Source: a virus. From it: a DNA stretch of 36,063 nt. Position 1 is the stretch's first letter. Every line of letters starts with the position of its first letter. The notes below the pieces were generated by a model. That model searched no databases. It was not told the DNA's origin and saw only the letters and a list, made by a program, of their open reading frames with translations. Location of the stretch: positions 1 through 36,063 of IMG/VR virus record IMGVR_UViG_3300048591_000336. One strand, given 5' to 3'. Position numbers and translations under genes: made by a program. Below are positions 869-26,887 of the stretch, one piece after another.

Positions 869-3800
869 ATGCCGGACTGGGGAAATGTCGAGAGTGTGCG
901 CAAGTGGATCCGTGAGCGAGAGGAGGAGGAGAAGCAGCCTTCTTCTCGCAAGGTGCAGGGGCCGAAGACGCGCGAGGAATATGAACGGGATATGGCGGCG
1001 CTGCGTGCTGATGGTGAGCAGGCGCAGGGATGGCGTGCACCGGTCAAGGCGTATGATCGGCCAGAGGTGCAGCAGGCATTGAACCAGAGCGGCGGGCAAT
1101 CGGCGGAGTTGCTGCGGTTGCTGAGGTTGCTGAGCATGACGGGGGAGAGTGGCGGCCAGGCCGCGCGAGGGGCGAGGGGCGAGGAGCCAGGGGGGGCAAG
1201 CCCCAGGCCGGATGCGGGGTCGAGCCGCGCGGGAACAAGTCCTGTTGATTTCTCGCAACTGCGACCTGGCGATCCGATTCCGGCGCAACTGCGACTGGAG
1301 ATGCAACGCGCGGCGAACGCTGCCCAGACGGCGCCAGACCCCAACGGAGGGATGCTCGACCGGCCGGCCGGAATGCAGAGCTATGCGGAGTTTGATGCAG
1401 GCCGGCAGACAGACCAGGCGGCGATGCGGAGACAGGCGGCGCTGCTGCCAGCAGACCAGCAGGCGGCGGGGTATGACGTGGGGAATTGGGCGCAGGATGT
1501 GATGGGGCCGGCGTGGACATATTACGCAGCCCGGCGAGACCAGCGGGCAACGGAGAACCAGCAGCGGATTGAGCAGGGGACGCAGAGTTGGTACGACCCG
1601 ATCATGCAAGTGGGGGGGAATGCGATGGACTTGGGGTTCTTGATACCCCAAAAAGCGCTGACCTCGGCGGATACGAACCCGCTAATGGATGCCATGACCA
1701 CGGCGACCTTGGCGATCAACGGACAGGAGATGCCAGAGCCAGAGTCCGACCGGCCCCGCGGGATGTCGCCGGCGCAGGTGTACGCTCCCCTTGGCGGCGC
1801 GCTGAACAAGATGTTCAATCCGTTCAACCCCAACCATTTCGATTGGACAACGCCGGAAGACGGCAGGGTGGCGCAGCAGGTATGGACGCAGGCGACGGAT
1901 TATATCTGGAGTGAATGGCAGAAGCACAACGCCATGAATCAGGCGCTGGCGGGATTGCCAGAGGAACAGCGCAAGGAAGCGGAGCTTGCTATCCTCAATG
2001 CCACCAGCGGCGCCGACCATGCGTGGTCAACGTGGAATGCGATCCAGCAGAAGCAGAACGTCGAGACGCTGCGCCAGACGGCGAAACAGTTGGCGGCGCA
2101 GGGCGACACGACCACGGCCAGCCAGATGTACCAGTCATACCGAGAACTGAACGCCAAGAGCTATGCCGATCTGGTGGATGAGAACCAGAATATTTGGGCA
2201 GAGATGGTTGAGGGCATCTTCGCTGACCCGACGAGCATCGTGCTCGACCCGCTGATGGATGCGGGGATGGCGGCGTGGCGGTATGGGCGGGCGGCGAACA
2301 AGGTGGCAAAAGCAGGACAGGCCAGCACGAAGGCGCTTGACGCTGCGGTGCAGGACGGGATGCGGATGGCCGGGCAGCTGGAGGATGGGGTCACGGTTCC
2401 CGCGGCGGCGAACTGGCTACAGCAATTGTTTGGCAGGACGGCGGACACGAAGGTGCACATGGAGGCGGACGCACTGTGGAAGAGTGCGACGCAGTTGTTC
2501 CGCGGGGTGGACAATGCAGCAGATGCGCAGTTGTTGCTGCAAACATGGATCGAGAATCCTGCACAGCTGATCCAGGGTGTGACGGGGCTGACTTCAAAGG
2601 GGCTGCGTGAGGTGGCTGGTGTGGCCGACAACAAGGTGCGCTACGGCTACCTGAGTGTGGCGGGCGACGAGCAGTTACAGGCGCTGCCTATCTTGCAGAC
2701 AATCAAAGAGAATCTGCTGAACCTGCCCGCTCTGCGGGCGGAGGGCGGGTTCAACGCGCTGGAGTTCCTGACGCAGTTGGACACGGCGATCTACAGTGGG
2801 GTGCGCAAGAAGTATGGGTTGGAAGCGCTCGATGATCTGGGCGAGGGGGTGACGCGCTGGGCGATCCGGCGATTGGATGAGCCAGGGACGGACGGCGAAA
2901 AGTGGGTGGTCGATTACCTGAACGCTGACGGCGGGATCATGCGGTCGTCTGACGCTATGAGCTATGAGGCTGCGAAGACGCAGACGGGGGCGCTACAGAA
3001 GGCGCTCGACGCAGGGAAGGGGACGCCGACCGTACAGGGTGCGCTGAAGATGATCGGCAACGTGCAGCGGGGATTCCTCTCTGATATGTGGCTTAACCTG
3101 CGGCCCTCTCACTGGATTCGCAATGCAGCAGCAGCGACGGCGGCGACGATGGCGGATGACCTGTACACGCTGCGCAGTGTGAGCGGTATCCTCGACGAGC
3201 TTGGCGCCAAGTTTGTGGGGGCGGCGCCGACCAGCCGGATACAGGAGACGCTTAGCGGGGCGGCGAAGATGGCGGGCGGCCAGGCCGGACAGACGGCGAC
3301 CTCTCAGGGGCAGCACTGGAGCCGGGGAATTTGGGAGAAGAACAACCCCTACGCGAGTTTGAATGAAGCAGCGAGCCAGGTGTGGTCGGGGATGACGCAT
3401 CTGTTTGGAACAAATGTTCCGTTTGGGGAACAGGCGTTCTATCTACGGGCTTTTGACAAGGGGTTCAACCGCAGCTTTGGGAAGCTGTGGGGCGACGTGG
3501 TGAAAGAAACATTGTCGCCACAGGTGGAGAGATTGGGGCTTGACCCGGCTATGGGGCAGTCGATTGTCAACTCGGTGATCTCGGCGGGGGTGTACGGCGG
3601 TAAGCAAGATGTAGCGCAGGCCGCACGCAAGGTAATCTATGGAGCTTACCAGCCGTTCGACCCGCGCACACTGGGCGTACCTGACGAGTTGTTTTCGGCA
3701 GATGGGTGGAAGGAAGTGCAGAACGGGATCGAGGATTGGCTGCGCAACAGCCCCGATCCCTCCAACCAGATGGGGGAGATCGCCACGTGGGTGCGGCAGA

Positions 3801-6800
3801 TTGTCGGGCAGGAGAAGGTGCGCTACGGCGACATTCTGCGCAACGCTGCACCGCAGCCGGGTGTGTATGAGTGGAGCAAGCTGGACGCCGTGGACGAAGC
3901 GGCGGAGATGATGGATAGCCTGACGCAGGCGGCGACGAAGGCCGGGGTCGATCCCCAGCAGGCGCAGCAGCAGGCGCAGGCGTTGGCGGGTAGGCTGATC
4001 GACGGGCAGCAGGAGGCAATGGACAGCTTCCTGCAGGAGATGGCGACGGTTAAGAACCCCACGGCGATGAACGTGGCGTTTGACCTGTTGACGACGCTGC
4101 ACGGGCTGAAGACAGGCGCACGCCGGCAGGTGGATGAGTTGAGCCGGTTGGCGGCGGATGCATCCACGCCGGAGATGTGGCTGCGCAAGTTCGAGGAGAC
4201 GGGGAAGATCTACACGCAGTTGAGCGACGATTTGTCGGCTACGATCGCCGGGGCGGCGGATGATTTGCGCACGGTGGTGGCCGGGGGAGAGGTGCAACGC
4301 AAGTACGACTGGTGGGCAGCGTTGCGCCGGTACTTTGACTATGACCAGGCAGAGAATGCGGCGGTGCGGATCACGCCATTGGGCAGTTCGAAGGACAGCC
4401 GGGAAACGTGGGAGGCAGTGATTGAGGCCAACCGGCAGTATATCGACGCCAGCATGGTGCAGTTGTACGATGCGTTTCAGCGTTTCCCGTCGGTAGATTC
4501 GCTGGATGTGTTGCGCTCGGCGCAGCAGAGCATCGACATGGAAGGCGCCCGGGTGGCGGCGTGGCTGGCAAAGCAGCGAGAGCAAGCGCTGCAAGGGGCG
4601 CTGAAGTGGGACGATTACTTTGCGGCCAGGAATTCGGCATGGTATCGAGCGTTCGACAACATGACGATTTACAACGAGGCGGCAAAGCGGGCGATTGTGG
4701 CGCAAGGGATGGCGGAGCAGGTTCCCAGCCAACTGCGCTGGGTGGACGACTTCGCCGGTGGGGAGTTCTTCCTGCTGGGGCCAGCAGAAAAGAAGGGCTA
4801 CTGGCTGGCGCGGCGCATGGACGACGGGACGATCCATCAATTCGATACACCTGGCAGAGACCCGCATCAGGCTGCACCGCTTGTGCCAGCGGAGGTGCTG
4901 AACGATTGGTACAAGGTGACAGACCAGTCGGACCGGATCAAACCGGTGCTTGAGGAGATTGCCCAGGCGAACCCGCTGCCAGTGCGCAAGCCAACCGGAA
5001 CGCTGACACCCTCGAATGTGGGGACAGCAGAGGCAGGCTTTACGGATTACCCAGATTTTCCTGCGGATTGGCGGGCGCCGTGGACACAGCAGGAGTTACG
5101 GCAAGCGACAGACCCGGCGAATGATGTTGATTTCGGGATGCGATCCTCGGCGGCCAACCCTGCGCAGGCAACGCCAGGGGCGCCAAGCGCAGAAAGCCTT
5201 GACCCCAACGCACGCTTGACCAAGCCGAAAAATTGGGATAGCCCGCAGCGGGCGGCGCCGTTGGAGCCTGGCGCACAGGTGCGGCACAGGAAGACCGGGG
5301 CGCTGTACACCGTCGAGAAACGCAGCGAGAGCGGCGGCTGGTACTATGTGACTGATGAGAAGACAGGGAAGCGGAGCCGGTTCAAAAACCAGAGCCTGGA
5401 GGGGTTGGAGAAACCGGTGGCCTGGGTGAAGCCGGAACAACAGGCGAAGGTGGTTGAGCTTGTGCAGGCCGGGAAGAAGCAACTGATCACCGAGTATGGG
5501 GATCGGCTGCGGGAGATGGGCTATACCAACGGGCAGTTGAAGCGATACTCTCCGGAGGAGATCGCGCACGCCATCACCGGGACAAGCAAGGGGCCTAAGC
5601 CTGCGGTGGAAACATCCTGGATGACCTTCGAAGGTCAGCAGGGAATGGCAGGGCGGGATGAGTTGCGTGAGTTCATGCGCCAGGCGTGGGACTCGGATGT
5701 GGCGGCGACGTGGGGCAACCATCTCGAACTAGAGCGCATTGTGCGGCGCTTCAATAAGGATGGCCGGGTTGAACTGGTGAGCAGGGACAGCCGGTTAAAC
5801 CCCCAGGAAGTCGAAGGACTGTTCCAGGATTTGATAGGCACGACGGTGGGCGGCGAGCCGATCAACGACCTGGGCGACGTGGAGCGTTTCCTGCAGCGCT
5901 ATGTGGACGCAGGCGCCGACTTCACAGAGAACAAGGCGGCGATCACAGAAGCACGCCAGTTCAAAGGGATGGATGTCACACAGATTGTGGCGGACACCTA
6001 CGACGAACTGAAGCGCTTCGGGATGGATGACGCATCGATCCGGGAACTGGCAACGCAGAGCAGGCGGCAGGTGTTGGAGTGGATCGCCCAGGTGCGGGGC
6101 AAGATGCCGGACGCAGACAGCCCTTACGCCGGGATGATCACCTACGAATCCAGCACGCCGATGTTCAAGGGGATGACGGGACCGGGCTTCCTGACCGACG
6201 ACCCGCAGGAGACGCTGGAGAATGTGTACCAGTTGATTCGTACGAAGTGGGGAAAACGCAAACAACCGGAAGTGGGCGATGTGGCGATGCACATGATCAC
6301 ATCGCTAGACGAGGCAGGCGAACGGATTATAGCGGCGCTACCTCAACTGGCGCAACGGACGCCGAACACACTGGACGCCGGACAGAAGCGCTTCCTATTG
6401 CAGGCTATCGATGGATTGATGCCGACCTTTGACAATGTGGTGGCGGAGAGCCGGAACATTGGGGAGTCGTTGGCGAACGGCGCCATGCTGAACTACCAGG
6501 ATCGCCGGGGCTTCGACAGTCTGTTGAGTCTGGTGGCGCCTTATCATTACTTCTGGTCGCGCGGCGGGGCGACGTGGGCGCGGCGGCTGATGACGCAGCC
6601 GAAGACGCTGAACCTGGTGTACGAGACGAACCGGGCGATTAACACGGAGAACCGGCGACAGGATATGCCACAGCGTTTGGAGGGTTCGATCCCCGCGGTG
6701 AATGTGCCGGGCGGCCAAATCCGCATGGGCAACATCATGAACTGGCTGCTGCCGCAGGCGATCAATAATTTTGTAGACCCAGAAGCTGCGAACAACGATC

Positions 6801-9718
6801 TGGAGCGGATGATTATGCGCTTCCAGCAGGTGACGCCAGGCTTTATGCCTGTTATGCAGTATGCTCTCGACGCCTACTTTGACCAAGTGGCGCCGCTGCC
6901 CGGCGGACAGAAGCGGGTAGAGACTCAGCCGCGCAAGTATGTGCCCATGTACGGGGTGATGAGTGATGTTAGCCAGACGTTGACGGGGCAGGGGTTGCCG
7001 GGCGGAGGCGATGCCTACGACCCCTACCGCACACGGCGGGCGCTGCGCAACATGGCGCAGGAGGGACAGTTCGACGGGGAGACAGCGCAGTATGCACAGC
7101 AGATCGTCGTCAACCTGGAGAACGGTCGGGATCGGTATGCGGGGATTCCGCAGCAGGCGCAGAAGACAGCAGACGCAGCCTATCTAGCAGCGCAGAAGCA
7201 GGGAGGAGGAGAGCGGCTGTTGACCAGTGCGACGGGACTGGCGGCGGGTGCACCGCTCTACTATTACCCCGACTCGGAAGGGGAGATCCGCCAGGCGCAG
7301 CAGGCATACGGGCAGGCCGGGTACGACCCGCAGATGAATCCATACGGCAGTGCGCAGCAGCGGCGGGATGTGCTGGAAGCGAACCCAGGGCTGCCGGTGG
7401 CGTGGTCGACGAATGTGGCGCCGGGCAAGTTGGAGCCTGCCCAGGCCGCGCAACGCAGCGAGATGTGGGGTCTGCTGGACAACCAGGTGTATGGGCCGAT
7501 GGCGAATGCTGTGACGCGGGCGATCCTGGCGAATCCGGAGATCACCGAGAAGGAGATCAACGCCATCAAAGGGCCTTACTACGACAAGGCCGCGGAGATC
7601 AAGGGGCGCTATCCTGGGTTGCCGGAGAGTGACCCGAAGGCGCCGAGCGGAGCGAACCCGGCGGAACGGGCCATCTATGAATTAGAACGGCTGTTCAACG
7701 TGGCGGGGAAGCCGACCTATCCTGGGGACAACGCCAGTAATGCAGAGATGCAGCAGTACTATGCAGCGAAGGCGACCTGGGAAGAGCAGCGGCTGAACGT
7801 GATCGACCAGCGGCTGAATCAGTTTGTGTATCAGGCGGAAGGCGACCCGACGAACGAATGGCAGCGGGAACTGGTGAAGCTGGTGCAAGGCCGCTACTCG
7901 TCGGATATGCTACGGCAGTACAAGGAAATGAAGTACGCCACGGATGTGGAACGAGGATGGGCGGAAAAGGAAGCGCTGCGGCAGGAGACGACGGCGGCCA
8001 ACTGGAATGCGAAGGCCGGGGCAGTGGCAGAGCGGATGGGGCCAGAGGGTCAAGCACTATGGAGCCAGTATCACGCGGCGGCGAAGGGGCCGGAGCGGGA
8101 CGCACTGAAACAGCAGAATCCGGCGGTGCGTGAGGCGATCATGGCGGGGTACAATCCGGTTGAGTATGACCAGGCGGTGGTGCTCTTTGGCCCGGAGGCG
8201 TGGGCGACGCTGTACAACCCAGAGCGGCCGAGTTATCCCGTGGGAGCGGACGAGGCAACGCTGCAACAGTATTACGACCAGTTGTCGCAGTGGAACCAGG
8301 CGCACCCGACCGATGCGGAGATGAGATTCTGGATTAACGGCAGACCAACGATCGATGAGGACTTCGCCTATGACTTTGGCGACGACTGGCAGGAAGCACA
8401 GGCGATCTTCGGCGAGGATATCTTCGACATAGAGCGGGCGTCGAACAGTGCGGCGGACTGGCGGGCGTGGCGCAATGCGAACCCGGATGCGTACATGCGG
8501 CTGACGGGGTACAAGGAGTGGAAGAAGGTAGGCGTCGATGATGCAGAGAGTAGACAGGCAGTAGGAGAGGACGCAGCGCAGATCGCCTATCAGCCGGGGA
8601 TGCCCAGGCCGGTGGGTAGTGAGCGGCGGCCAGTGGGGGCAGGGGATTGGGAGGCAGGGTTGACGCTAGGGCAGGCGGCGCCGGATATGCTGGCGACTGC
8701 GGAAGTTCCGCAGTCGGGTGGACTGGGTGGACTCAATGGACAGGCGCCGGGGATGCCGCAGACAGGGAAGCCGCAAAATACAGAGATGGCTATAACCCCT
8801 GGGGTCAATGGTATGAGTGGGGAAGTTCCTACCACGGCGGAAGGGTGGGCAATGCGCAATGCCAGTTTCGCCAAATATCAGCAGGGGACAGTGCAGTGGG
8901 AGCAACGCAAGGCGCAGGTGTACGAGGTCTTTGGCCAGGAGACGGGCGGGCTGTACGAGCAGTACCTAGCCCTGCCCAGCAACAGCCAACAGAGGCGGGA
9001 TTTCAAGGCGCAGTATCCAGAGTTGCGAGCGGTGCAGCTCTACACGTTTCAGCCGGACGCCTATCAGCAGGCGCAGGAGATGTTTGGGCAGGAAGGTGTG
9101 CTGGCGTGGGCGAAGACGCCTGCCTACGCTGACACGCCAGAAGCAAAGGCAGCACGGTCGCAGTATCTGGACGCCAATCCGAAAGCGTTTACAGTGGGGG
9201 CGTGGCTGTACGGGCGGCCGGGCGAGGATAACGAAGACACGGCGGATGATGAGAAATTCCGCTATGACCTGGGCGGGGATTACAGCACGGCGCAGGAGAT
9301 GTTTGGGGCGGACATCTGGCGGGTGGTGGAGGGATACAAGAGGAACGCACCGAAGCCGATCAAGAGCCAGTACTACAAGGACAACCCTAGCCTGTCGCCG
9401 TTCTTCGATTGGTGGTACGGCAACCTGCCGAAAACAAACAGCATGGCGGCCACGACTCGCAGCGGGGCGAGCTATGGCGGCGGCGGTGGTTGGGGTGGCG
9501 GCGGCGGTTGGGGCGGTGGCGGTGGCGGCGGAAGCTGGCAGCCGAAGGTGTACCCGCCGCGCATTGACCCGCGGTATATGGACAGAGAGTTGGAGGTGCC
9601 GGCGCAGATGTTGCGGCGCTGGAGATCGGGCGACAATCAGATCGATACGTCGTGGCTGCGGGCCGGGGATCGGTTGGCGCCAGGGCAGTTGAAGGCATGG
9701 AGACCGAGAAGCAGCTAA
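869..9718 (+). CDS. Giant (2949 aa) putative internal virion / DNA-ejection protein
   Basis: ATG 869 follows an AAGGGGGAA ribosome site, and the frame stays open for 8.85 kb. At 2949 residues it is a quarter of the genome. The N-terminal ~130 residues are charged and low in complexity. A long helix-rich body has amphipathic, Trp/Pro/Asn-rich stretches near residues 740-760 (WLNLRPSHWIRN) and 1885-1900 (PYHYFWSRGGATWARR), of the kind seen in large encapsidated phage proteins. A small SH3/Tudor-like segment lies near 1468-1516. Two homologous modules of about 165 residues occur at about 2388-2553 and 2687-2855, sharing FG-x-E/A and Y/W-rich motifs. A glycine-rich linker (GGGGWGGGG type) precedes a basic C-terminus. 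The position between portal and scaffold genes fits an internal or ejection protein. I saw no RNA polymerase, lytic transglycosylase or protease motif. The gene is certain; the function is inferred. Confidence 0.8.
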   Translation: MPDWGNVESVRKWIREREEEEKQPSSRKVQGPKTREEYERDMAALRADGEQAQGWRAPVKAYDRPEVQQALNQSGGQSAELLRLLRLLSMTGESGGQAARGARGEEPGGASPRPDAGSSRAGTSPVDFSQLRPGDPIPAQLRLEMQRAANAAQTAPDPNGGMLDRPAGMQSYAEFDAGRQTDQAAMRRQAALLPADQQAAGYDVGNWAQDVMGPAWTYYAARRDQRATENQQRIEQGTQSWYDPIMQVGGNAMDLGFLIPQKALTSADTNPLMDAMTTATLAINGQEMPEPESDRPRGMSPAQVYAPLGGALNKMFNPFNPNHFDWTTPEDGRVAQQVWTQATDYIWSEWQKHNAMNQALAGLPEEQRKEAELAILNATSGADHAWSTWNAIQQKQNVETLRQTAKQLAAQGDTTTASQMYQSYRELNAKSYADLVDENQNIWAEMVEGIFADPTSIVLDPLMDAGMAAWRYGRAANKVAKAGQASTKALDAAVQDGMRMAGQLEDGVTVPAAANWLQQLFGRTADTKVHMEADALWKSATQLFRGVDNAADAQLLLQTWIENPAQLIQGVTGLTSKGLREVAGVADNKVRYGYLSVAGDEQLQALPILQTIKENLLNLPALRAEGGFNALEFLTQLDTAIYSGVRKKYGLEALDDLGEGVTRWAIRRLDEPGTDGEKWVVDYLNADGGIMRSSDAMSYEAAKTQTGALQKALDAGKGTPTVQGALKMIGNVQRGFLSDMWLNLRPSHWIRNAAAATAATMADDLYTLRSVSGILDELGAKFVGAAPTSRIQETLSGAAKMAGGQAGQTATSQGQHWSRGIWEKNNPYASLNEAASQVWSGMTHLFGTNVPFGEQAFYLRAFDKGFNRSFGKLWGDVVKETLSPQVERLGLDPAMGQSIVNSVISAGVYGGKQDVAQAARKVIYGAYQPFDPRTLGVPDELFSADGWKEVQNGIEDWLRNSPDPSNQMGEIATWVRQIVGQEKVRYGDILRNAAPQPGVYEWSKLDAVDEAAEMMDSLTQAATKAGVDPQQAQQQAQALAGRLIDGQQEAMDSFLQEMATVKNPTAMNVAFDLLTTLHGLKTGARRQVDELSRLAADASTPEMWLRKFEETGKIYTQLSDDLSATIAGAADDLRTVVAGGEVQRKYDWWAALRRYFDYDQAENAAVRITPLGSSKDSRETWEAVIEANRQYIDASMVQLYDAFQRFPSVDSLDVLRSAQQSIDMEGARVAAWLAKQREQALQGALKWDDYFAARNSAWYRAFDNMTIYNEAAKRAIVAQGMAEQVPSQLRWVDDFAGGEFFLLGPAEKKGYWLARRMDDGTIHQFDTPGRDPHQAAPLVPAEVLNDWYKVTDQSDRIKPVLEEIAQANPLPVRKPTGTLTPSNVGTAEAGFTDYPDFPADWRAPWTQQELRQATDPANDVDFGMRSSAANPAQATPGAPSAESLDPNARLTKPKNWDSPQRAAPLEPGAQVRHRKTGALYTVEKRSESGGWYYVTDEKTGKRSRFKNQSLEGLEKPVAWVKPEQQAKVVELVQAGKKQLITEYGDRLREMGYTNGQLKRYSPEEIAHAITGTSKGPKPAVETSWMTFEGQQGMAGRDELREFMRQAWDSDVAATWGNHLELERIVRRFNKDGRVELVSRDSRLNPQEVEGLFQDLIGTTVGGEPINDLGDVERFLQRYVDAGADFTENKAAITEARQFKGMDVTQIVADTYDELKRFGMDDASIRELATQSRRQVLEWIAQVRGKMPDADSPYAGMITYESSTPMFKGMTGPGFLTDDPQETLENVYQLIRTKWGKRKQPEVGDVAMHMITSLDEAGERIIAALPQLAQRTPNTLDAGQKRFLLQAIDGLMPTFDNVVAESRNIGESLANGAMLNYQDRRGFDSLLSLVAPYHYFWSRGGATWARRLMTQPKTLNLVYETNRAINTENRRQDMPQRLEGSIPAVNVPGGQIRMGNIMNWLLPQAINNFVDPEAANNDLERMIMRFQQVTPGFMPVMQYALDAYFDQVAPLPGGQKRVETQPRKYVPMYGVMSDVSQTLTGQGLPGGGDAYDPYRTRRALRNMAQEGQFDGETAQYAQQIVVNLENGRDRYAGIPQQAQKTADAAYLAAQKQGGGERLLTSATGLAAGAPLYYYPDSEGEIRQAQQAYGQAGYDPQMNPYGSAQQRRDVLEANPGLPVAWSTNVAPGKLEPAQAAQRSEMWGLLDNQVYGPMANAVTRAILANPEITEKEINAIKGPYYDKAAEIKGRYPGLPESDPKAPSGANPAERAIYELERLFNVAGKPTYPGDNASNAEMQQYYAAKATWEEQRLNVIDQRLNQFVYQAEGDPTNEWQRELVKLVQGRYSSDMLRQYKEMKYATDVERGWAEKEALRQETTAANWNAKAGAVAERMGPEGQALWSQYHAAAKGPERDALKQQNPAVREAIMAGYNPVEYDQAVVLFGPEAWATLYNPERPSYPVGADEATLQQYYDQLSQWNQAHPTDAEMRFWINGRPTIDEDFAYDFGDDWQEAQAIFGEDIFDIERASNSAADWRAWRNANPDAYMRLTGYKEWKKVGVDDAESRQAVGEDAAQIAYQPGMPRPVGSERRPVGAGDWEAGLTLGQAAPDMLATAEVPQSGGLGGLNGQAPGMPQTGKPQNTEMAITPGVNGMSGEVPTTAEGWAMRNASFAKYQQGTVQWEQRKAQVYEVFGQETGGLYEQYLALPSNSQQRRDFKAQYPELRAVQLYTFQPDAYQQAQEMFGQEGVLAWAKTPAYADTPEAKAARSQYLDANPKAFTVGAWLYGRPGEDNEDTADDEKFRYDLGGDYSTAQEMFGADIWRVVEGYKRNAPKPIKSQYYKDNPSLSPFFDWWYGNLPKTNSMAATTRSGASYGGGGGWGGGGGWGGGGGGGSWQPKVYPPRIDPRYMDRELEVPAQMLRRWRSGDNQIDTSWLRAGDRLAPGQLKAWRPRSS
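1165..1184. repeat. GGGGCGA heptamer tract inside the giant gene
   Basis: Nearly three GAGGGGC heptamers lie in a coding region and are read as Ala-Arg-Gly-Glu-type residues. The same heptamer occurs at 11001-11028, 12816-12839, 21681-21692 and 28781-28797. Confidence 0.8.
8694..8716. repeat. 23-base near-perfect palindrome, copy A (twin of 25406-25428)
   Basis: 11-base arms around a single G, with the core CGACTGCGGAA-G-TTCCGCAGTCG, lie inside the giant gene. 21 of 23 bases match the site in the ParB-like gene, and both are read in the same frame (TAE-x-x-QS). A protein-binding site, possibly parS-like, or a small palindromic repeat is possible. Confidence 0.65.
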
Positions 9719-9734: not shown

Positions 9735-10271
9735 ATGGCAACACACCCGGCGAATGCGGTATTCGTAAGTGGAGACGGGAAGGTCTCGTTCAACGAGAAC
9801 GGGCGCAAGCTCGACAGTAATGGCAATGTGGTATGGGGAGATTACCAGGGGCTGCGCGGGGCCAATGCGCGCGTGCGACCGGAGATTGTCGAGGCATACC
9901 GGAAGGAGGAGGAAGCACAGCGACAGCAGCAGCAGGCGCCGCCCGTGGTGCAGGAGTACAGGCCGCCCGGTGGGCAGGGGACGCAGCAGGGGACGCAGCA
10001 GCCGACGAATCAATGGGCAGGGGTGGGGGCGTGGGATGCACCGATGCAGGCGCAGCCGTGGCGACAGTATCGACCGCAGCAACCGGCATGGGAGCCACCG
10101 CCAAGCGGGTTGGGGACGCCACAGCAGACGCCTTACTGGAATCAGTTCACGCCTCCACAGCAGTGGGAGCCACCACCAAGTGGCCTGGGGGCGCCACAGC
10201 AGGCGCAGGGCATGGTCGATCCGTGGAATCGGTACAAGCCGCCGAGGTCGTACAATCCCTATACGCCGTAG
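9735..10271 (+). CDS. Proline/glutamine-rich virion-region protein (178 aa)
   Basis: ATG 9735 follows a GGAGAGGAGAG ribosome site 17 bases after the giant gene. A short, possibly folded N-terminus (about residues 1-45, Gly/Asn/Val-rich) leads into a disordered Gln/Pro-rich tail. The tail has repeats of WEPPPSGLG followed by (T/A)PQQ (about residues 118-160) and ends in NPYTP. I recognise no family. The composition resembles the glutamine-rich protein upstream, and the position before the scaffold gene suggests a minor head component. The last 33 bases of the gene belong to a 44-base segment repeated downstream at 10318-10361, so the 3' end has been duplicated. Confidence 0.7.
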   Translation: MATHPANAVFVSGDGKVSFNENGRKLDSNGNVVWGDYQGLRGANARVRPEIVEAYRKEEEAQRQQQQAPPVVQEYRPPGGQGTQQGTQQPTNQWAGVGAWDAPMQAQPWRQYRPQQPAWEPPPSGLGTPQQTPYWNQFTPPQQWEPPPSGLGAPQQAQGMVDPWNRYKPPRSYNPYTP

Positions 10272-10361
10272 GGGTAGCAGGCCTGCGTCCCTTCGAAGCC
10301 GGGAAGATCGCCGAACGAGCCGCCGAGGTTGTACAATCCCTATACGCCGTAGGGGTAGCAG
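10237..10361. repeat. 44-base direct repeat (10237-10280, 10318-10361) flanking a capsid-derived insert
   Basis: The two copies differ at one base and are offset by 81 bases. Copy one contains the last 33 bases of the preceding gene plus a TAGCAG box. Copy two ends in the TAGCAG box of the first full promoter. Between them lies the 33-base copy of capsid sequence. Confidence 0.85.
10284..10316 (+). repeat. 33-base exact copy of major capsid gene sequence (12679-12711)
   Basis: All 33 bases equal 12679-12711, which in the capsid gene encode part of VRPFEAGKIAEQ (about residues 338-349). Here they are in a non-coding gap between two copies of a 44-base repeat. A chance match of this length is very unlikely. 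Confidence 0.9.
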
Positions 10362-10384
10362 CCCAGTGCAAGCTGTGCTAGACT
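10356..10384 (+). promoter_or_regulatory. Phage promoter P1 (TAGCAG-17-TAGACT)
   Basis: TAGCAG at 10356-10361, a 17-base spacer ending TGTGC, and TAGACT at 10379-10384. A GGGGTAGCAG upstream box and a TGC immediately before the -10 are shared with P2, P3 and partly P4. Confidence 0.65.
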
Positions 10385-10448
10385 TTTATGCAGTGAAATG
10401 CGACTAAACTGCCACGTCCGCCGCATTCACGCCCGCTAAACTCGCCTT

Positions 10449-10481
10449 CGCCCGGAATCGCCTCCGGGCGTTGGTATTTCT
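10449..10481 (+). terminator. GC hairpin plus TTGGTATTTCT after P1
   Basis: An 8-bp stem (CGCCCGGA / TCCGGGCG, 10449-10456 with 10463-10470) and a 6-base loop, followed by TTGGTATTTCT. It would end a P1 transcript of about 90 bases if it terminates. The T tract is interrupted, so efficiency is uncertain. Confidence 0.5.
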
Positions 10482-10491
10482 AGGGTAGGGG

Positions 10492-10520
10492 TAGCAGCCC
10501 AGTGCAAGCTGTGCTATACT
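10492..10520 (+). promoter_or_regulatory. Phage promoter P2 (TAGCAG-17-TATACT)
   Basis: TAGCAG at 10492-10497, a 17-base spacer identical to that of P1, and TATACT at 10515-10520. The -10 box is the closest of the family to TATAAT. Confidence 0.65.
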
Positions 10521-10584
10521 TTTATGCAGTGAAATGCGACTAAACCGCCAAGTCCGCCGCATTCACGCCCGCATAACTCGCCTT

Positions 10585-10616
10585 CGCCCGGACCGCCTCC
10601 GGGCGTTGGTATTTCT
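10585..10616 (+). terminator. GC hairpin plus TTGGTATTTCT after P2
   Basis: An 8-bp stem at 10585-10592 / 10598-10605 with a 5-base loop, followed by TTGGTATTTCT. The loop differs from the P1 copy by an indel and the stem is conserved. Confidence 0.5.
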
Positions 10617-10626
10617 AGGGTAGGGG

Positions 10627-10655
10627 TAGCAGCCCGGTGCAAGCTGTGCTAGACT
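10627..10655 (+). promoter_or_regulatory. Phage promoter P3 (TAGCAG-17-TAGACT)
   Basis: TAGCAG at 10627-10632, a 17-base spacer with one change from P1, and TAGACT at 10650-10655. The sequence downstream is unrelated to the P1/P2 leaders. Confidence 0.6.
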
Positions 10656-10726
10656 GTGGGGGTGGTGCGCATCAGTCGTCGCCTGGCGCCTCACAGCCCA
10701 GATAACCGTCCTGCTATTTGTATCAA

Positions 10727-10757
10727 GGCCCGGAGCAGTCCGGGTCTTGGTATTTCT
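10727..10757 (+). terminator. GC hairpin plus TTGGTATTTCT after P3
   Basis: An 8-bp stem (GGCCCGGA / TCCGGGTC with one G-T pair, 10727-10734 with 10739-10746) and a 4-base loop, followed by the same TTGGTATTTCT tail. The leader before it is not homologous to P1/P2, so the hairpin and tail are conserved independently. Confidence 0.5.
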
Positions 10758-10783
10758 GGGGCGGGGCGGCAGGGGTGCAGGGG

Positions 10784-10812
10784 TAGCAGGCGCAGAACGA
10801 ACGTGCTAGAAT
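10784..10812 (+). promoter_or_regulatory. Phage promoter P4 (TAGCAG-17-TAGAAT), before the scaffold gene
   Basis: TAGCAG at 10784-10789, a 17-base spacer and TAGAAT at 10807-10812. The spacer differs from P1-P3 but contains GAACGT just before the TGC, like the operator-like palindrome in P5. It is the last promoter before the scaffold-capsid genes. Confidence 0.65.
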
Positions 10813-10824
10813 ATGGGGAAGCGG

Positions 10825-10860
10825 GAGCGGATGTCCGGTAGACGGGCGTCCGCTCTTTTT
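10825..10860 (+). terminator. 13-bp hairpin plus TTTTT between P4 and the scaffold gene
   Basis: Arms 10825-10837 and 10843-10855 pair over 13 positions (two G-T) around a 5-base loop, then TTTTT. It starts only about 13 bases after the P4 -10 box and lies 33 bases before the scaffold start. It is therefore either an attenuator or a stabilising 5' hairpin of the late mRNA. Confidence 0.6.
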
Positions 10861-10892
10861 GATTGGTCAAATGATTTCCAGGAGAGAAGAAC

Positions 10893-11660
10893 ATGGCAGA
10901 GGAATTGACAAGCGGCCAGCCAGCGGGCAATACGACGCCATCACCAGAGACCGGTGGTCAAGCGTCAGCCAGCGGACGGCAGCCTCAGTTCGCAGGGAGA
11001 GGCGAGGGGCGAGGGGCGAGGGGCGAGGCCGGGCAACCGAGCACGCCGCCAGTCCCCAGCAGCGGCGGCGGAGCGACCCCGGCCGCGGCTGATGCACCCG
11101 CTGATGGCAAGCCAGAGGACGCCAAGCAGAAGGGTTTCAACCTGTTTGAGGATGATAACTTCCGCAAGGTGCAAGGCGCCTGGCAGAGACAGATGGCGCA
11201 GTTGCAGCAGCAGAATACAGAGATGGCAAAGCGGGTTCGAGACAGCGAACTGAAGGGGCTCGATGATTTCGAGAAACTTCAGTACGAAAAGAAGGAACTC
11301 GAGGGCGCCATCCAGAACATGCAGCAGCAGCGAGAACTGGAGATCATTGCCTATCAGAGGCAGCAGGACATCGAACAGATCGCCAGAGAGACAGGCGTGG
11401 ACGCAACCGAGATCGGGCAGGCGACAGATTACGCCAATGCATGGCAGCGGGCCGCGCTGAAATTGCGTGTGCAGGTGGGAGATCTACAGAAACAGATCGA
11501 CCGCATGGAAGGACGCAAGAAAGAGGCGAACGCACCGTATTTGGGCGGCGGCGCATCGACTCCGGCGAGTGACGATCTATCAGCAGCATTTGACGCGGCC
11601 AAGCGCAGCCGAGACCCGGCAGCGTGGGCCAAAGCGGTGAGAGAATCACGAAGGAGTTAA
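10893..11660 (+). CDS. Putative capsid scaffolding protein (255 aa)
   Basis: ATG 10893 follows a CAGGAGAGA ribosome site and ends 6 bases before the major capsid gene. The N-terminal ~70 residues are low in complexity and disordered, and include a GRGEGRGARGEAG tract made by the GGGGCGA heptamer repeat. Residues about 85-215 form a long highly charged helix with strong coiled-coil character (DFEKLQYEKKELEGAIQ). The C-terminus is Ala/Ser-rich with basic residues. Disordered N-terminus, central coiled coil, basic tail and position directly before the capsid gene are the classic scaffold layout, guiding procapsid assembly. The assignment rests on architecture and context, not a sequence signature. 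Confidence 0.75.
   Translation: MAEELTSGQPAGNTTPSPETGGQASASGRQPQFAGRGEGRGARGEAGQPSTPPVPSSGGGATPAAADAPADGKPEDAKQKGFNLFEDDNFRKVQGAWQRQMAQLQQQNTEMAKRVRDSELKGLDDFEKLQYEKKELEGAIQNMQQQRELEIIAYQRQQDIEQIARETGVDATEIGQATDYANAWQRAALKLRVQVGDLQKQIDRMEGRKKEANAPYLGGGASTPASDDLSAAFDAAKRSRDPAAWAKAVRESRRS
11001..11028. repeat. GGGGCGA heptamer tract in the scaffold gene
   Basis: Four tandem heptamer units (28 bases), the longest tract in the window. They are translated as GEGRGARGE-type residues in the disordered N-terminus. Confidence 0.85.
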
Positions 11661-11666: not shown

Positions 11667-12812
11667 ATGGCTACCGGAACCCGGACTAGCTACACCGACA
11701 GTGGCGTGAACATGCGCTCGATTGCCGACGCCGTGTTCATGATCGATTGGACAGAGGCGCCGTTGCTCAACATCTTGGGCTTTGGGCCAGAGAACGTGCG
11801 CAAGTTCGAGCTAGTAAATTTTCCTTCGACCAAGATCGAGTGGATTGAAGACACGATGTCGCCGTATACGACCACGATGGATGAGTCCGGCTTTGACGAC
11901 AGCGAGACCGATCTGACTGTGGCCGCCGGAACCGGCGCCTACTTCAGACAGGGCGATATCATTTCGGTGGAGAGCGAGTACATGCTAGTCAGTGCCGTGA
12001 GCACTGACACGCTGACCATTGTGCGTGGCTATGGCAGCACGACCGCGGCCGCACACACCACAGGCAACACGGTGACGCTGTTGACACGCGCCATGCCCGA
12101 AGGCGCCAACGCCACGACCGGCCACTCGACCACGACCACCCAGCCGTACAACTACAGCCAGATCATCAGCGAGGCCGCGCAAGCAACAAAGACGGCAATT
12201 GCGATCAAGAAGTATGGCGTCGAGGATGAAATGGATTACCAGGTTGGTAAACTTTTCGCTAACAGCGGGCAGGCGGGCAAGCTTGCGCAGTTCCTGCAAC
12301 GGACGTTCTACTATGGAAAGCGGGTGCAACGCACAGCCTCGGCGTATGGCAGCATGGGCGGCTTCGGTGCGTTCGTGACAACCAACGTGGCGAACCTGGC
12401 CAGCGCCAGCCTGCAACGATCGGACATCCACACGAAGATCCGCCAGATTCGAGATGCGGGCGGCATGTGCACGCATGTGATCACCGGGTCGTGGGGGCTG
12501 GAGAAGATCAACGGCATGTATGAGGGAATGATCCGCACCACCCGCGACGAGACGCGCGGCGGCAGCGAGATCACGATGATTAAAACTCCGCATGGCGAGG
12601 TCGAGGTGGTGTACGACTGGATGGCGCCGGCGGGGTATATGTACTTCATCAACGCTGAGAAAGTCGGCTGGCTGCCGGTGCGTCCCTTCGAAGCCGGGAA
12701 GATCGCCGAACAGGGCGACTACTACCTGACCGACGTGGTTGGGGAATACACGCTGGCGATTGCGAACGAGAAGAGCCACGGACTGATCTACGGATTCAGC
12801 ACGACTAGCTGA
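11667..12812 (+). CDS. Major capsid protein, HK97-fold / SU10-like (381 aa)
   Basis: ATG 11667 follows an AAGGAG ribosome site overlapping the end of the scaffold gene. The length is typical for HK97-fold capsid proteins. The N-terminal segment with APLLNILG, an insertion-like domain at about residues 79-140 (LTV.., QGDIISVESEYMLV.., TLTIVRGYGSTTAAAHT..GN), the helical middle and the C-terminal GEYTLAIANEKSHGLIYG resemble the SU10-type major capsid family. The protein would form the icosahedral shell with the scaffold upstream and the portal as partners. A 33-base stretch (12679-12711) is copied exactly at 10284-10316. The capsid call is strong from position and composition. The subfamily is inferred. 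Confidence 0.85.
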   Translation: MATGTRTSYTDSGVNMRSIADAVFMIDWTEAPLLNILGFGPENVRKFELVNFPSTKIEWIEDTMSPYTTTMDESGFDDSETDLTVAAGTGAYFRQGDIISVESEYMLVSAVSTDTLTIVRGYGSTTAAAHTTGNTVTLLTRAMPEGANATTGHSTTTTQPYNYSQIISEAAQATKTAIAIKKYGVEDEMDYQVGKLFANSGQAGKLAQFLQRTFYYGKRVQRTASAYGSMGGFGAFVTTNVANLASASLQRSDIHTKIRQIRDAGGMCTHVITGSWGLEKINGMYEGMIRTTRDETRGGSEITMIKTPHGEVEVVYDWMAPAGYMYFINAEKVGWLPVRPFEAGKIAEQGDYYLTDVVGEYTLAIANEKSHGLIYGFSTTS

Positions 12813-12881: not shown

Positions 12882-13457
12882 ATGATTACCAATCAGCTAC
12901 AACAATTTGAGAGCGGGATCGACGGGGCCGGGCCGGCGCAATGGTACGGGCCGGATGTTCCTGACGGCGACCGGGGCGCCTGGGCAACGGCGGCAGTGGG
13001 CAGCCTGTATTGTCGGCGCAACAGCACGAGCACGCGCTGGTATGAGAAGCGCAAGAGCGACGGCCGCGACGATGACTGGGCGCTGACATGGGGAGAGATT
13101 CGGGAGACGGTGACGGTTGCCGACTTCACGGACGGCGGCAGCGCGGCGGGCACGTATGTGCTGGTCGAGCAGATTCCGCTGGGGGCGTGGGTGCTGCGCA
13201 CGGTGCTGCGTAATGTGACGGGCTTTACGGGCAACACGAGCGCTACGCTCACCGTGGGCGACGGCACAGACGTAGATCGCTATAACACGGGCACGCCTTC
13301 GGTATTTACGACGGCCAACGCCATCGACATGGCCGCACCGAGCGGCACGCAGGTGCACGTGGCGGCGGCATCGGTGACGCTGACGGTTACGGGCGGTTCC
13401 GACTTTACGGCCGTGGTAGCCGGGCAATTGACGATCTCGATCTATTTCCTTGGGTAG
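12882..13457 (+). CDS. Probable head decoration / capsid-associated protein (191 aa)
   Basis: ATG 12882 follows an AAGGAG ribosome site. The N-terminal ~60 residues are polar, with a stretch of Arg/Lys/Asp (YEKRKSDGRDDDW). Residues about 75-191 are a Thr/Val/Gly-rich beta sandwich-like domain (TLTVGDGTDVDRYN, VTLTVTGGSDFT, GQLTISIYFLG). It has no Cys pair, signal peptide or enzymatic motif. Genes of this size directly after the capsid gene often encode decoration or head-fibre proteins, and that is the basis of the call. Confidence 0.5.
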   Translation: MITNQLQQFESGIDGAGPAQWYGPDVPDGDRGAWATAAVGSLYCRRNSTSTRWYEKRKSDGRDDDWALTWGEIRETVTVADFTDGGSAAGTYVLVEQIPLGAWVLRTVLRNVTGFTGNTSATLTVGDGTDVDRYNTGTPSVFTTANAIDMAAPSGTQVHVAAASVTLTVTGGSDFTAVVAGQLTISIYFLG

Positions 13458-13530
13458 GTTCGCAGAGTTTGCGAGAGTTCGCAGAGGGGTGAAGGTCGGG
13501 TTCGTCCGTGCGCGCCTGCTCAACCGAAGG

Positions 13531-13547
13531 CCCACGTCAAACGTGGG
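13531..13547. other. Short hairpin in the 150-base gap before 13610
   Basis: CCCACGT and ACGTGGG form a perfect 7-bp stem with a CAA loop. It is flanked by CAAC and GTTG, which can extend the stem past a bulge. No T tract follows, so a terminator is unlikely. The rest of the gap (13458-13609) holds a 10-base direct repeat (GTTCGCAGAG) near 13458-13490 and no open frame. Confidence 0.5.
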
Positions 13548-13609
13548 GTTGATGTAGGTTGCGTGGGCGCCTAGCCTCTCTGCGGATTTCTATATAGGAG
13601 TTGACTCCC

Positions 13610-17631: not shown

Positions 17632-20028
17632 ATGAGAGGGCATATTCAGTTGGGGGCGACAGCGGCGACGCTGCGCCCCTATTTGTTGAACGACCCGCGC
17701 AACTACCGGGCGATGACGGCGAACCCGATGGCAGCCAGAGTGAGCACGGGCAGCCAGTATGGGGATTTGCAGGCGTGGTCTACGTTCCTGATGGCGGACT
17801 GGCAGGCAGGCGTGGGCAAGACACAGGCGGAAGCGGGTGGTTTTCTGTTCGCCGAGGCGGAGACACGGGTGCCGCAACAGGTGATCCTGCCGGCGGCGCT
17901 GGGGTGCGCACCGATGAAGTTTGCCAGTTTGGTTGTTGGCGCCGGATTTGGCGACGAGACGCCCGCGTATATGCCAGCGGAAGCAACAGCATACACCGTG
18001 CAGGCGGTGGGCGGCACGGGCAATCCGACACGCATCAGCATTGAGATAACAATTTTCGGCACCATAAGCGAAGCCCCGGCCGAGAGACCGGAGATCGAGG
18101 GGGTAGCCGTGTACGGATACATTGCCACAGGTGTAGAGGTGACGGCGGCGCTCTATAGCGACAGCGCCGGGCAGCCGGGCAGCAGCCTGCGGACGGGTAC
18201 GCTGACGCCGACGGCGGCGCAGAACTACCGGCCTGGCTACCAGTGGTATTATATCCCGCTCTCGACCACCTATAACGCAGATATCAACGGCGACGTGACC
18301 TGCCATTGGGTGATTTATCCAACAAGCAATGGCAACGAGATCACGCTGGTGGAGGGCGACAGCTATGGCGACAATAGCTTTACCTATGACGGCAGCACGT
18401 GGAACGCCAACACGGGGCAGTGCCCGTTTTTCTGTTGGTCAAAGCCGTTTGCTGGCTATCCAGGCGCCGATATGTATGATCTGACCGGCGCCCGTGGGTT
18501 TTTTATCGACGGCGACAGCATCGGCACGGTGGGGTATTTGCGCCAAGGCAGCACGGGCAACCTGACCGCCACGCCGCGGGCGTTGACCTACAACGCCAGC
18601 AGCAACCAATGGGAGCCAGTAACGGTAACTGGGATGTCCTCGACATGGAGCGGTCTGGCGCCTGACGAGGTAGGGCCGCCGGTGCTGTTCGATGGCGTGG
18701 TGTACATTCCACAAGGGGCGAACTATTCGACGTGGACACTGAGCAGTGACACGGGTGGCAACTCTACCAATGATGCCCACTTTTTTTGCTCCTGGGCGGG
18801 GTACTTGTGGCGAGCATACAACAATCAGTTGTGGTACTCGACGGATGGGACGACGTGGACGGCGATCACCAACGACGTGGGGCCGAGCGACTACCGCATC
18901 CGGGGGATGGCGGGCTTTGGGCAATATTTGTATGTGGCGACAGATGAGGCGCTGTACTATGTGGCGCCGGGTGATGTGGCAGTGGGGCTGTTCCCGTGGA
19001 GCACGATCGACGAGGGCAACGGGGTGGGCATGGTGGTGCACCAGGGTGCGCTCTATATCCCAGTGGCTGGGCGCATTTTGCGCTACAGCGAAGATGGCAG
19101 CCTGCAGGATGTGTGGGTGAGCCGCGACAACGACCTGAACAACCGGCGGCTGGGCAAAATTGCGGCGTTGGCGGGGCTTTCCTCGTGGCTGGTGGCGGGG
19201 GTGAATGGCACGACAAGCAGCGACCCGGCCAGTGTGTGGGCCTTTACGCAGCAGGGGTGGCACCACCTGGCGACGCTGCCGCCGGACTTTGGGATCCGTT
19301 CGATGTACTACGACCGGGTGCGCAGCCGGTTGTGGGTATCCTCGGACGAGTGGGCGATCTTCTCTATCTATGCGCCAGACTGGGCGATCAATCCGTACAA
19401 CGACAGTAGCGCCAGTTTCATGCCCCACGGGTGGCTGGAGACGGGTCGCATTTACTCCGGTCTGCGCGAGCTACAAAAGGATTGGGAGAGTGTACGCTTG
19501 TTTGGAGAGTTCACGCCGGGCGATACCGATGTGGTGGTCTACTACCGGGATGCAGAGACGGAGGAGTGGACGAGCCTGGGCACGGCGACGGCGGATGCCG
19601 AGGAGCTGCGATGGAGCGACTACGCCACGCGGCCAAACGGCAGTTGGTTGAAGCTCGGCCTGCTGTTGCGCACGGACACGCCGGCGAGCACGCCGAAGAT
19701 CGAGGCAGTGGCGACGAAGCTGCTACCGATGGTGACGGATCGGCGCGCGTGGAATCTGGCGATCATTATCCACGACGACCAGGAGATGGTTGACGGGGCC
19801 GTGAATGTGTACACGGCGGACGAGATGATCGCTCACCTGCGGGGACTGGTGGAACAGGTTCCGCCTTTTATTTTCGAGGATGTGACGGGGACGCAGTACG
19901 AGGTGAAGGCGACGGGCAGCGCGGAGAATATCCTGCAATATGAATGGCTGGACGCCAGCCAGGAGGTGCGCCTGATGTGGGCCTTCGAGGTGGCGGTCGA
20001 GCAGGTGACGCCGGGGGCGTATAACTGA
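17632..20028 (+). CDS. Large tail protein with beta-propeller-like core (798 aa)
   Basis: ATG 17632 follows GGGGAGGGGAG. The N-terminal ~290 residues are mixed, with a beta jelly-roll-like part (YPTSNGNEITLVEGDSYGDNSFTYDGSTW). Residues about 290-620 contain successive four-strand units with W/Y-rich turns (QLWYSTDGTTWTAI, GQYLYVATDEALYYV, GALYIPVAGRILRYSEDG, SRLWVSSDEWAIFSIYAPDW), typical of a beta-propeller. The C-terminal ~180 residues form a further beta domain. In short-tailed phages beta-propeller proteins build the tail nozzle or bind receptors, so a nozzle or receptor-binding role is inferred. The next gene overlaps it by TGATG. Confidence 0.65.
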   Translation: MRGHIQLGATAATLRPYLLNDPRNYRAMTANPMAARVSTGSQYGDLQAWSTFLMADWQAGVGKTQAEAGGFLFAEAETRVPQQVILPAALGCAPMKFASLVVGAGFGDETPAYMPAEATAYTVQAVGGTGNPTRISIEITIFGTISEAPAERPEIEGVAVYGYIATGVEVTAALYSDSAGQPGSSLRTGTLTPTAAQNYRPGYQWYYIPLSTTYNADINGDVTCHWVIYPTSNGNEITLVEGDSYGDNSFTYDGSTWNANTGQCPFFCWSKPFAGYPGADMYDLTGARGFFIDGDSIGTVGYLRQGSTGNLTATPRALTYNASSNQWEPVTVTGMSSTWSGLAPDEVGPPVLFDGVVYIPQGANYSTWTLSSDTGGNSTNDAHFFCSWAGYLWRAYNNQLWYSTDGTTWTAITNDVGPSDYRIRGMAGFGQYLYVATDEALYYVAPGDVAVGLFPWSTIDEGNGVGMVVHQGALYIPVAGRILRYSEDGSLQDVWVSRDNDLNNRRLGKIAALAGLSSWLVAGVNGTTSSDPASVWAFTQQGWHHLATLPPDFGIRSMYYDRVRSRLWVSSDEWAIFSIYAPDWAINPYNDSSASFMPHGWLETGRIYSGLRELQKDWESVRLFGEFTPGDTDVVVYYRDAETEEWTSLGTATADAEELRWSDYATRPNGSWLKLGLLLRTDTPASTPKIEAVATKLLPMVTDRRAWNLAIIIHDDQEMVDGAVNVYTADEMIAHLRGLVEQVPPFIFEDVTGTQYEVKATGSAENILQYEWLDASQEVRLMWAFEVAVEQVTPGAYN

Positions 20029-21747: not shown

Positions 21748-21802
21748 GCCGGGCCTTGATACCCAGACACATAATCTGGTTATCTAGCGACCCGGCTTTT
21801 TT
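21748..21802 (+). terminator. Long two-part hairpin plus TTTTTT, between attP and int
   Basis: The outer stem GCCGGGCC / GACCCGGC (21748-21755 with 21789-21796) encloses an inner hairpin of 9 of 10 pairs (21758-21767 with 21775-21784), followed by six T (21797-21802). The T run covers the end of the convergent integrase gene. It would stop rightward transcription from the Xis-like gene before it enters int on the opposite strand. Confidence 0.7.
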
Positions 21803-22694
21803 ATTTCCCTACACCCTTCATCTTCGCCGTGTATTCATCCACCAGTCCTTCGGTCAGCCAGTTGGCGTAGTGTTTCGCCGTGGTGCTGATCTGACTGTGT
21901 CCCAGCACTTTCTGCACCAGGGACATGTCGCCGCCTTTGTTGAGGAGGTACATGGCCAAGCCGTGCCGGAACGAATGGGGGTTGAGCGGGCGCAGGTTGG
22001 CGCGGATGCAGCGGCGCCGGATCATCTGGTAAATACCCTTCTCTTGGATGGCAGCAAGGCGGGGATGCCTGGCGCCATCGGCGGCCAGGAACAACTGCGA
22101 CAGTGCGGACTCCGGGCGGCAGAACAGGTAGGCCACAAGTGCCCGTTCGACGGCGGGGAGGAGTGGCACCAGGCGAACGCCGGTTTTCCCATCGACCCGC
22201 AGCAGATGCTCGGCAATGCGATAGTCATTCGCAGCCAAGCGGGTGCACTCACCTAACCGAACACCACATAAAAACAGTGTGGTAATGATGAGTCTATCAC
22301 GATTGTCGATCCATGTGAAGCTCGAAATCGATTCGAGCAGGCGCAAATATTCATCTAGTTCGGTGCGGCGGGGTTCTTTGGGGGGGACGGCTGGGGGCTT
22401 CATGCCGGACATGGGACTGATCGGGATGTGCTGACGCTCCACCAGCCAGGCGAAAAAGCCACGCAGGGCGCGGTAGTGCCCTGCGACGGTGGCGGGCTGA
22501 TTGCCACTGGCACGGCTGGCAGCCAGGTACTGTTCGATGATCTCCCGGCTGAGCCAGTTGCCATTGTGCAGGCGATTGGCGGCGAGCCAGTGCAGGAAGC
22601 GGCGCACCTGCTCATCGTACCAGCGGATGGTGCGAGGACTGCGATCCACAGAGAGGGATTGCAGGAACAGCGTAAGAAGTTCGTAGACAGACAT
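21801..22694 (-). CDS. int: Tyrosine recombinase / phage integrase (297 aa)
   Basis: The start at 22694 is preceded by GGAGG. The N-terminal SAM-like core-binding domain spans about residues 3-95 and the catalytic domain about 105-290. The expected catalytic set is present: Arg146 (GVRLGE), Lys170 (DGKTG), His240 and Arg243 (HSFRH), His266 (GHSQ) and Tyr276 (KHYANW). The length and the compact N-terminus resemble XerC/D-type enzymes without an arm-binding domain. It reads toward the tRNA-His 3' half at 21686-21729, which it presumably recombines with the host gene. The gene ends on a shared T run with the + strand terminator. Confidence 0.93.
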   Translation of the reverse strand: MSVYELLTLFLQSLSVDRSPRTIRWYDEQVRRFLHWLAANRLHNGNWLSREIIEQYLAASRASGNQPATVAGHYRALRGFFAWLVERQHIPISPMSGMKPPAVPPKEPRRTELDEYLRLLESISSFTWIDNRDRLIITTLFLCGVRLGECTRLAANDYRIAEHLLRVDGKTGVRLVPLLPAVERALVAYLFCRPESALSQLFLAADGARHPRLAAIQEKGIYQMIRRRCIRANLRPLNPHSFRHGLAMYLLNKGGDMSLVQKVLGHSQISTTAKHYANWLTEGLVDEYTAKMKGVGK

Positions 22695-22836: not shown

Positions 22837-23259
22837 ATGCAGGAGTGGTTGCGGGCATTACATATACCCGGGTACGTGCGAGAAGACCTGCTGAAGTGCA
22901 GATTCTGTGAGTGTGGCGCCCCGCCTGTGGCGATAGGCGTTTTTGAGACGAGAGCAGCCAGGAATGCGATGTGGCTGTGCGCAATGCATCGCACGGAGGT
23001 TGATCGCGGTGTGACGGTGTACGAGATCGGATGCGTTGGTGCGTGCGGAGATGAAATGAATCACGATGCGTTGTTCTATGCGTTGGTGCGTGCGGAGTTG
23101 AAGCGCCTGGCGAACGGGAACGGGCCGCCAGATCCAGAGCGCTGGGACAGGCAGCGGGCACGCCATCTGCCGCTAGCGTGGCAGGTCAGCGAACTTACCG
23201 GAAAGTCCTGGGACGAGATGGTCCAGGAAGTGACATTTGTAAAAGGGGAACGGCAATGA
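22837..23259 (+). CDS. Zinc-cluster protein of unknown function (140 aa), first early gene
   Basis: ATG 22837 begins the early operon, divergent from int across a 142-base gap. CRFCECGAP (about residues 21-29) and WLCAMH (about 47-52) supply Cys and His ligands for a small zinc site. The C-terminal half is helical and basic, with a possible helix-turn-helix-like SELTGKSWDEMVQEV. The ribosome site is weak (GTGAGAG). Its stop overlaps the next start (ATGA). It may be an early regulator. Confidence 0.6.
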   Translation: MQEWLRALHIPGYVREDLLKCRFCECGAPPVAIGVFETRAARNAMWLCAMHRTEVDRGVTVYEIGCVGACGDEMNHDALFYALVRAELKRLANGNGPPDPERWDRQRARHLPLAWQVSELTGKSWDEMVQEVTFVKGERQ

Positions 23260-26818: not shown

Positions 26819-26835
26819 GGCACTGAGTATATCAG

Positions 26836-26864: not shown

Positions 26865-26887
26865 GTATTGGATCGGGAGGCTGGGCA

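Follow-up and report, generated by a model that had tools for sequence, protein, structure and literature searches.

Putative promoter–hairpin cassettes with a shared dyad operator before the capsid and terminase operons of an uncultivated phage

Middle promoters of phage T4 combine a MotA box with an extended –10 element, and late promoters of the P2 type rely on the activator Ogr and a TGT-N12-ACA dyad at about –55; to our knowledge, the latter have no terminator module. In the lambdoid phages lambda, 21 and 82, a late promoter (pR′) is followed by an intrinsic terminator (tR′) and then by the late genes, with the control site for Q embedded in the promoter solely between –35 and –10 (as direct repeats in phage 21); this read-through logic has been described for Q of lambda and 21 (PMC6606751). 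The same promoter-then-terminator gating logic is known for AlpA of Pseudomonas aeruginosa (PMC9371919), a predicted winged-helix factor that binds within two target promoters, with predicted terminators that begin 26 nt and 54 nt downstream of the start site (PMC7969949).

Here we consider a window of 36,063 nt, that is, the whole stretch of DNA analyzed (positions 1–36,063 of the virus record IMGVR_UViG_3300048591_000336), for which a preliminary description had proposed an array of four promoter–hairpin units, stating that no phage element of this form had been described. As far as we found, this is true of the quadruplicate array (the literature searched yielded no tandem late-promoter/terminator array of such form), whereas the promoter-then-terminator logic is already known from the targets of lambda Q and AlpA (PMC6606751, PMC9371919, PMC7969949).

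Judging by sequence, the Q-type order of promoter and then terminator before late structural genes is found in the window, with the pair P4/T4 preceding the scaffold and major capsid protein (MCP) genes and P5/T5 preceding the terminase operon. Unlike in lambdoid phages, there are up to five cassettes per genome, and the predicted control site is a dyad overlapping both promoter boxes, inverted in one relative. Moreover, no homologue of Q, AlpA or N matched in the ORFs scanned (Pfam, PHROGs, NCBIfam), and no sigma-dependent –10-like pause element is evident by eye in P3, P4 or P5. The cassettes appear to work like the Q system in architecture, and we do not class them as a Q system. With AlpA and PalpB–tB they would share the scheme of one factor, two target loci and a DNA site within the promoter, and our candidate regulator is also a predicted winged helix, but the canonical –35 is lacking, copies are amplified in tandem, and the likeness rests on layout. 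As in T4 middle promoters, a phage-specific box takes the place of the –35 and the –10 is extended; here, however, the box belongs to a dyad that extends from –37 to –10, of which it forms one arm, and terminators lie downstream. The dyad for a phage activator common to several late operons resembles P2-type late promoters, from which the cassettes differ in that the dyad covers –35 and –10 and a terminator module is present.

The four putative promoters of the same layout proposed for the intergenic region 10272–10892 are all found, with TAGCAG at 10356, 10492, 10627 and 10784, a gap of exactly 17 bases in each, and –10 boxes TAGACT, TATACT, TAGACT and TAGAAT from P1 to P4. Each has the form GTAGCA-N15-TGCTA with a –10 of the type TAnnnT and a GC hairpin after it, and all four lie within 10355–10860 of the plus strand: P1 (GTAGCA-N15-TGCTAGACT, 10355–10384), P2 (TGCTATACT, 10491–10520), P3 (TGCTAGACT, 10626–10655) and P4 (GTAGCAGGCGCAGAACGAACGTGCTAGAAT, 10783–10812). 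The pattern GTAGCAGN{14,18}TGCTA occurs four times in the window, compared to 0.01 expected from shuffled sequence. A scan of both strands of the whole window for GTAGCA-N-TGNTA with spacers of 5–25 yielded five sites, all five on the plus strand and all with N15, namely P1–P4 and P5 at 29727. A fifth complete cassette, missed by the preliminary description, is thus present outside the array region, at 29727–29830 before the terminase operon. One more GGGGTAGCAG box, the fifth in the array region (P0, 10271–10280, plus strand), overlaps the stop of ORF 9735–10271, and no –10 is seen downstream of this orphan. The cassette promoters are of the extended –10 type TGnTAnnnT without a TTGACA-like –35; we infer their identity as promoters from the sequence and from the fact that they precede operons in several phages. 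Together, the –35 and –10 boxes make up an inverted repeat (TAGCA/TGCTA), each box being one arm of a 27-bp dyad.

P1 and P2 are tandem copies 136 bp apart, as had been proposed, and are 95% identical; the 5% difference argues against a simple assembly duplication. The array is known from one assembly, and all records compared are metagenomic contigs. P3 shares with P1 and P2 the promoter, the exact TTGGTATTTCT and a similar hairpin core, and has an unrelated leader, in line with the preliminary description; the supposed tail TTGGTAT, however, for the most part belongs to a 15-bp stem, as its 3′ arm.

A hairpin follows the box in all five copies of the window, compared to approximately 0.03 expected per independent site, P1–P3 being non-independent. 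These are, all on the plus strand, T1 (10449–10470, 8-bp stem, tail TTGGTATTTCT), T2 (10585–10605, the same tail), T3 (10720–10753, 15 bp, tail TTCT), T4 (10823–10857, a 15-bp stem and then a T run, directly 5′ of the scaffold RBS) and T5 (29775–29800, 11 bp, tail TTGGTTTTCC). The T-rich tail ascribed to each unit of the array holds less well than the hairpins: among the four, a good U tract is observed solely at P4, the tails of P1–P3 being poor. Nor is the hairpin shared across the array, since that of P4 is unrelated in sequence to the others. T scores are 4.1 for P4, 2.2–2.4 for P1–P3 and 2.6 for P5, by which P1–P3 are predicted weak terminators and T4, a strong intrinsic one.

Directly downstream of the array is a gene (10893–11660, plus strand) that is scaffold-like by position, followed by the MCP gene (11667–12812, plus strand) of the SU10_MCP family (PF17236, E=6.7e-50). 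On the 5′ side of the capsid operon, 869–9718 (plus strand) is a single ORF of 2949 aa with relatives in three of the compared sequences (G001, G002 and L132) and no Pfam family above the cut-off. In the capsid–tail region, between ORFs 12882–13457 and 13601, positions 13510–13572 (plus strand) match the Rfam DUF3800-VIII RNA at 49.4 bits (gathering threshold 40.2), and no match at that threshold was found in G001 or the other relatives searched.

P5 (GTAGCACGGACGTTCCGAACGTGATACTAT, 29727–29756, plus strand) is immediately preceded by a predicted strong terminator (29664–29696, plus strand) closing the upstream operon, which makes T5 superfluous for ending that operon. The genes after P5 are a small membrane-protein-like gene (29861), a gene at 30240 that is small-terminase-like from its position, and, at 31005, the presumed large terminase, so called because of its location and a tblastn match to an annotated terminase.

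The closest relative, G001 (IMGVR_UViG_3300043411_000554), has an MCP 88% identical to that of the window and DNA of approximately 78% identity; its scaffold-like protein is 72% identical. It has a single P4 unit, which overlaps the upstream gene's stop codon, and a single P5 unit, P1–P3 being absent. P5 is also present in L216 (terminase 90% identical). The boxes, whose conservation in related phages had been suggested as a check, are hence retained in three phages at P5 and in two at P4. In T4, all 15 stem pairs are kept between the window and G001 despite seven changed pairs, one of them compensatory; in T5, 11/11 pairs are kept in the three phages with three changed pairs, again one compensatory. 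Together this makes ten changed pairs, two compensatory, with no stem pair lost, while in slid controls pairing drops to 43–60%; shuffle controls for covariation have no power at two to three sequences.

Among the P5 elements of the three phages, the dyad arms (GTAGCACG...CGTGnTA) are nearly invariant and the interior is divergent. The L216 dyad is inverted: it matches the P5 element of G001 at 25 of 27 positions in reverse complement and at 17 in the forward orientation (the 10/11 core match has a chance probability of approximately 8e-6), with the direction of the promoter unchanged. In both the window and G001, exact matches to the half-site TAGCACGNNCGTTC are confined to P4 and P5. The arms and the inverted element point to a DNA-binding regulator that would accept either orientation, and the inversion fits more readily with a symmetric dimer than with a Q-type factor loaded in one direction.

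As G001 has P4 and P5 alone, P1–P3 are most simply explained as an insertion of about 510 bp with both ends at the GGGGTAGCAG box GTAGCAG, and P4 is taken as the ancestral copy. The left junction contains a 33-bp exact copy (10284–10316, plus strand) of a part of the MCP gene (12679–12711), followed by a second, 94% identical copy (10315–10364, plus strand) of the end of ORF 9735–10271 plus the box, the first being at 10234–10283, with a spacing of 81 bp. Both a capsid-gene fragment and a duplicated gene end are expected from template switching. Chances seem evenly balanced that P1–P3 are side products, generated by template switching or duplication at this box and without selected function, and that only P4 and P5 matter: in addition to these junctions and the absence from G001, no related array copy was found in the viral contigs searched. 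On the other hand, the promoter and tail are kept despite the wholly different leader of P3, which may indicate selection, although modular recombination would have the same outcome. Neutrality of P1–P3 is a separate question, compatible with gated cassettes at P4 and P5.

Neither GTGCAAGCTGTGCTANACT nor related array copies were found elsewhere in 2.9 million viral contigs, and the array DNA had no match among phages and plasmids. The strict 18-base box pattern matched only G001 among viral contigs and nothing in GTDB genomes. The loose pattern GGGGTAGCAGN{12,16}TGCTA gave at least 120 stretches in viral contigs, presumed mostly chance, and five matches to TCCGGGNNTTGGTATTTCT were set aside as unrelated, their flanks showing no visible promoter–hairpin unit. 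In the compared sequence G002, two TTGACA-17-TAyAmT promoters (18333–18365 and 23951–23985) have spacers with TAGCAC before TGCTA and may represent a related operator with other spacing.

A capsid-alignment search yielded 69 loci. In two of them, from the distant but syntenic phages L147 and L154 (33–36% MCP identity), a TTGACA-17-TATWCT promoter, a shared leader GGTAATTGAATAAGTC, a strong terminator and the scaffold gene follow in this order; the promoter is unrelated to that of the window, while the promoter-then-terminator design at the scaffold gene is alike. These two loci have only 64% nucleotide identity overall; L132 is the same contig as L154, with shared flanking genes. A TAATTG stretch in both leaders could serve as a pause element. 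Six other capsid loci (L148, L150, L151, L153, L155 and L181), read by eye, have a simple promoter without a terminator, and thus the promoter-proximal terminator looks clade-specific. A promoter at the scaffold position would then be general, and the terminator next to it limited to some lineages.

Our preferred reading, held tentatively and at slightly less than even probability, is that of late-operon cassettes gated by a phage factor, with antitermination as the likelier gate. Each cassette would consist of an extended –10 promoter inside a 27-bp phage-specific dyad operator and a hairpin terminator approximately 5–80 nt past the start site. By default, RNA polymerase would yield only short RNAs of approximately 45–100 nt; with a phage-encoded factor at the dyad, it would be initiated and/or modified so as to pass the terminator(s), reading into the capsid operon from P4 and the terminase operon from P5. 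If the factor were a processive antiterminator, P1, P2 and P3 would also supply the capsid operon past all downstream terminators, raising capsid-gene dosage. From the elements observed we infer termination at the hairpins, the gating by a phage factor, antitermination as the gate and any function of P1–P3. The position of a strong terminator between a promoter and the operon it serves implies that read-through is conditional. For gating count the enrichment of the motif, the stem pairs kept at P4 and P5, the separate terminator before P5, the order of elements in L147 and L154 and the layout of the AlpA targets; against it count the poor U tracts of P1–P3 and P5, the six relatives with a promoter and no terminator, the lack of matches to Q, AlpA or N in the ORFs scanned, the inverted L216 operator and the absence of an evident pause element. 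Of the three readings offered earlier, that of stacked late promoters with attenuators is the best fit, given single units before the capsid and terminase operons of relatives and hairpins kept through substitution, while for small RNAs and titration the positive evidence is confined to the array.

A candidate for the regulator is a small protein (23256–23546, plus strand; 46% identical in G001), whose predicted winged-helix fold resembles CodY, ArsR and MarR domains. The 140-aa Cys-rich protein encoded at 22837–23259 has an AlphaFold pLDDT of 43. The broader proposition of a new late-gene control, unrelated in sequence to Q, N and AlpA, in which a phage factor recruited by an orientation-independent 27-bp dyad within the promoter licenses RNA polymerase past a promoter-proximal terminator and some phages amplify the cassette in tandem to tune capsid output, we regard as rather doubtful. 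If gating is true, uncultivated phages with SU10-type capsids gate late genes by promoter and terminator through a DNA element other than that of lambda Q or AlpA; whether factor loading depends on orientation and copy number could then be tested directly with the inverted operator and the enlarged array. Tandem amplification of an entire promoter–terminator unit, bordered by a captured piece of the capsid gene, suggests a route by which phages could rewire late expression through replication errors.

A somewhat unlikely alternative is that a dimeric phage repressor or activator at the dyad merely sets initiation, the hairpin ending upstream transcription or shielding the mRNA 5′ end, without antitermination. 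The nearly invariant arms around a divergent interior and the restriction of the half-site to P4 and P5 agree with it, and it keeps its weight because of the inverted L216 operator; yet a promoter cut off from its operon by a strong terminator would be silenced, and at P5 the upstream operon is already ended by a separate one. That each cassette is instead a small regulatory RNA gene, its 45–100 nt product acting in trans, appears improbable: promoter and hairpin do make RNA-sized units, and whole P1–P3 units fold better than shuffles (z from –1.8 to –2.7), but leaders differ between P1/P2, P3 and P4, and P4 and P5 lie directly before operons. Moreover, no Rfam family reaches the gathering threshold at P1–P5, which counts against this reading, the only sub-threshold matches in the array, 10719–10752 and 10448–10470, being at chance level (E 2.3 and 5.8).

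Still less probable, indeed very unlikely, is a titration array in which the four operators would bind away a DNA-binding factor of the phage, or the use of the array by a ParB-like protein for partition or silencing. The operators are clustered and a ParB-like gene is present (24802–26052, plus strand), but G001 has only two boxes, which are dispersed, and although the boxes are conserved there, conservation of the ParB-like protein is limited to the 45 residues at its C-terminus, which also disfavors this protein as the dyad binder. Leader-peptide attenuation was rejected: the 13-codon ORF of the P1 leader loses its stop in P2, carries two non-synonymous changes and has no counterpart in P3 or P4.

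Several other features of the window were observed. A hairpin at 26834–26862 (plus strand) lies just 5′ of an FtsK-like gene, and its G001 counterpart (29029) is of different sequence, also with a stem and a T tail. ORF 23714–24646, whose product is only 36% identical in G001, contains in-frame tandem repeats of approximately 63 bp at 23970–24115 (plus strand; RASRALDDQTVVDVVDDVIAG). The last 264 bases exactly match bases 10–273, inside a repetitive gene (regions 1–543 and 35620–36063), which may point to a circular or circularly permuted contig. A tyrosine integrase gene (21801–22694, minus strand), together with the ParB-like gene and the FtsK/SpoIIIE-like gene (26804–28231, plus strand), suggests a temperate or plasmid-like phage.
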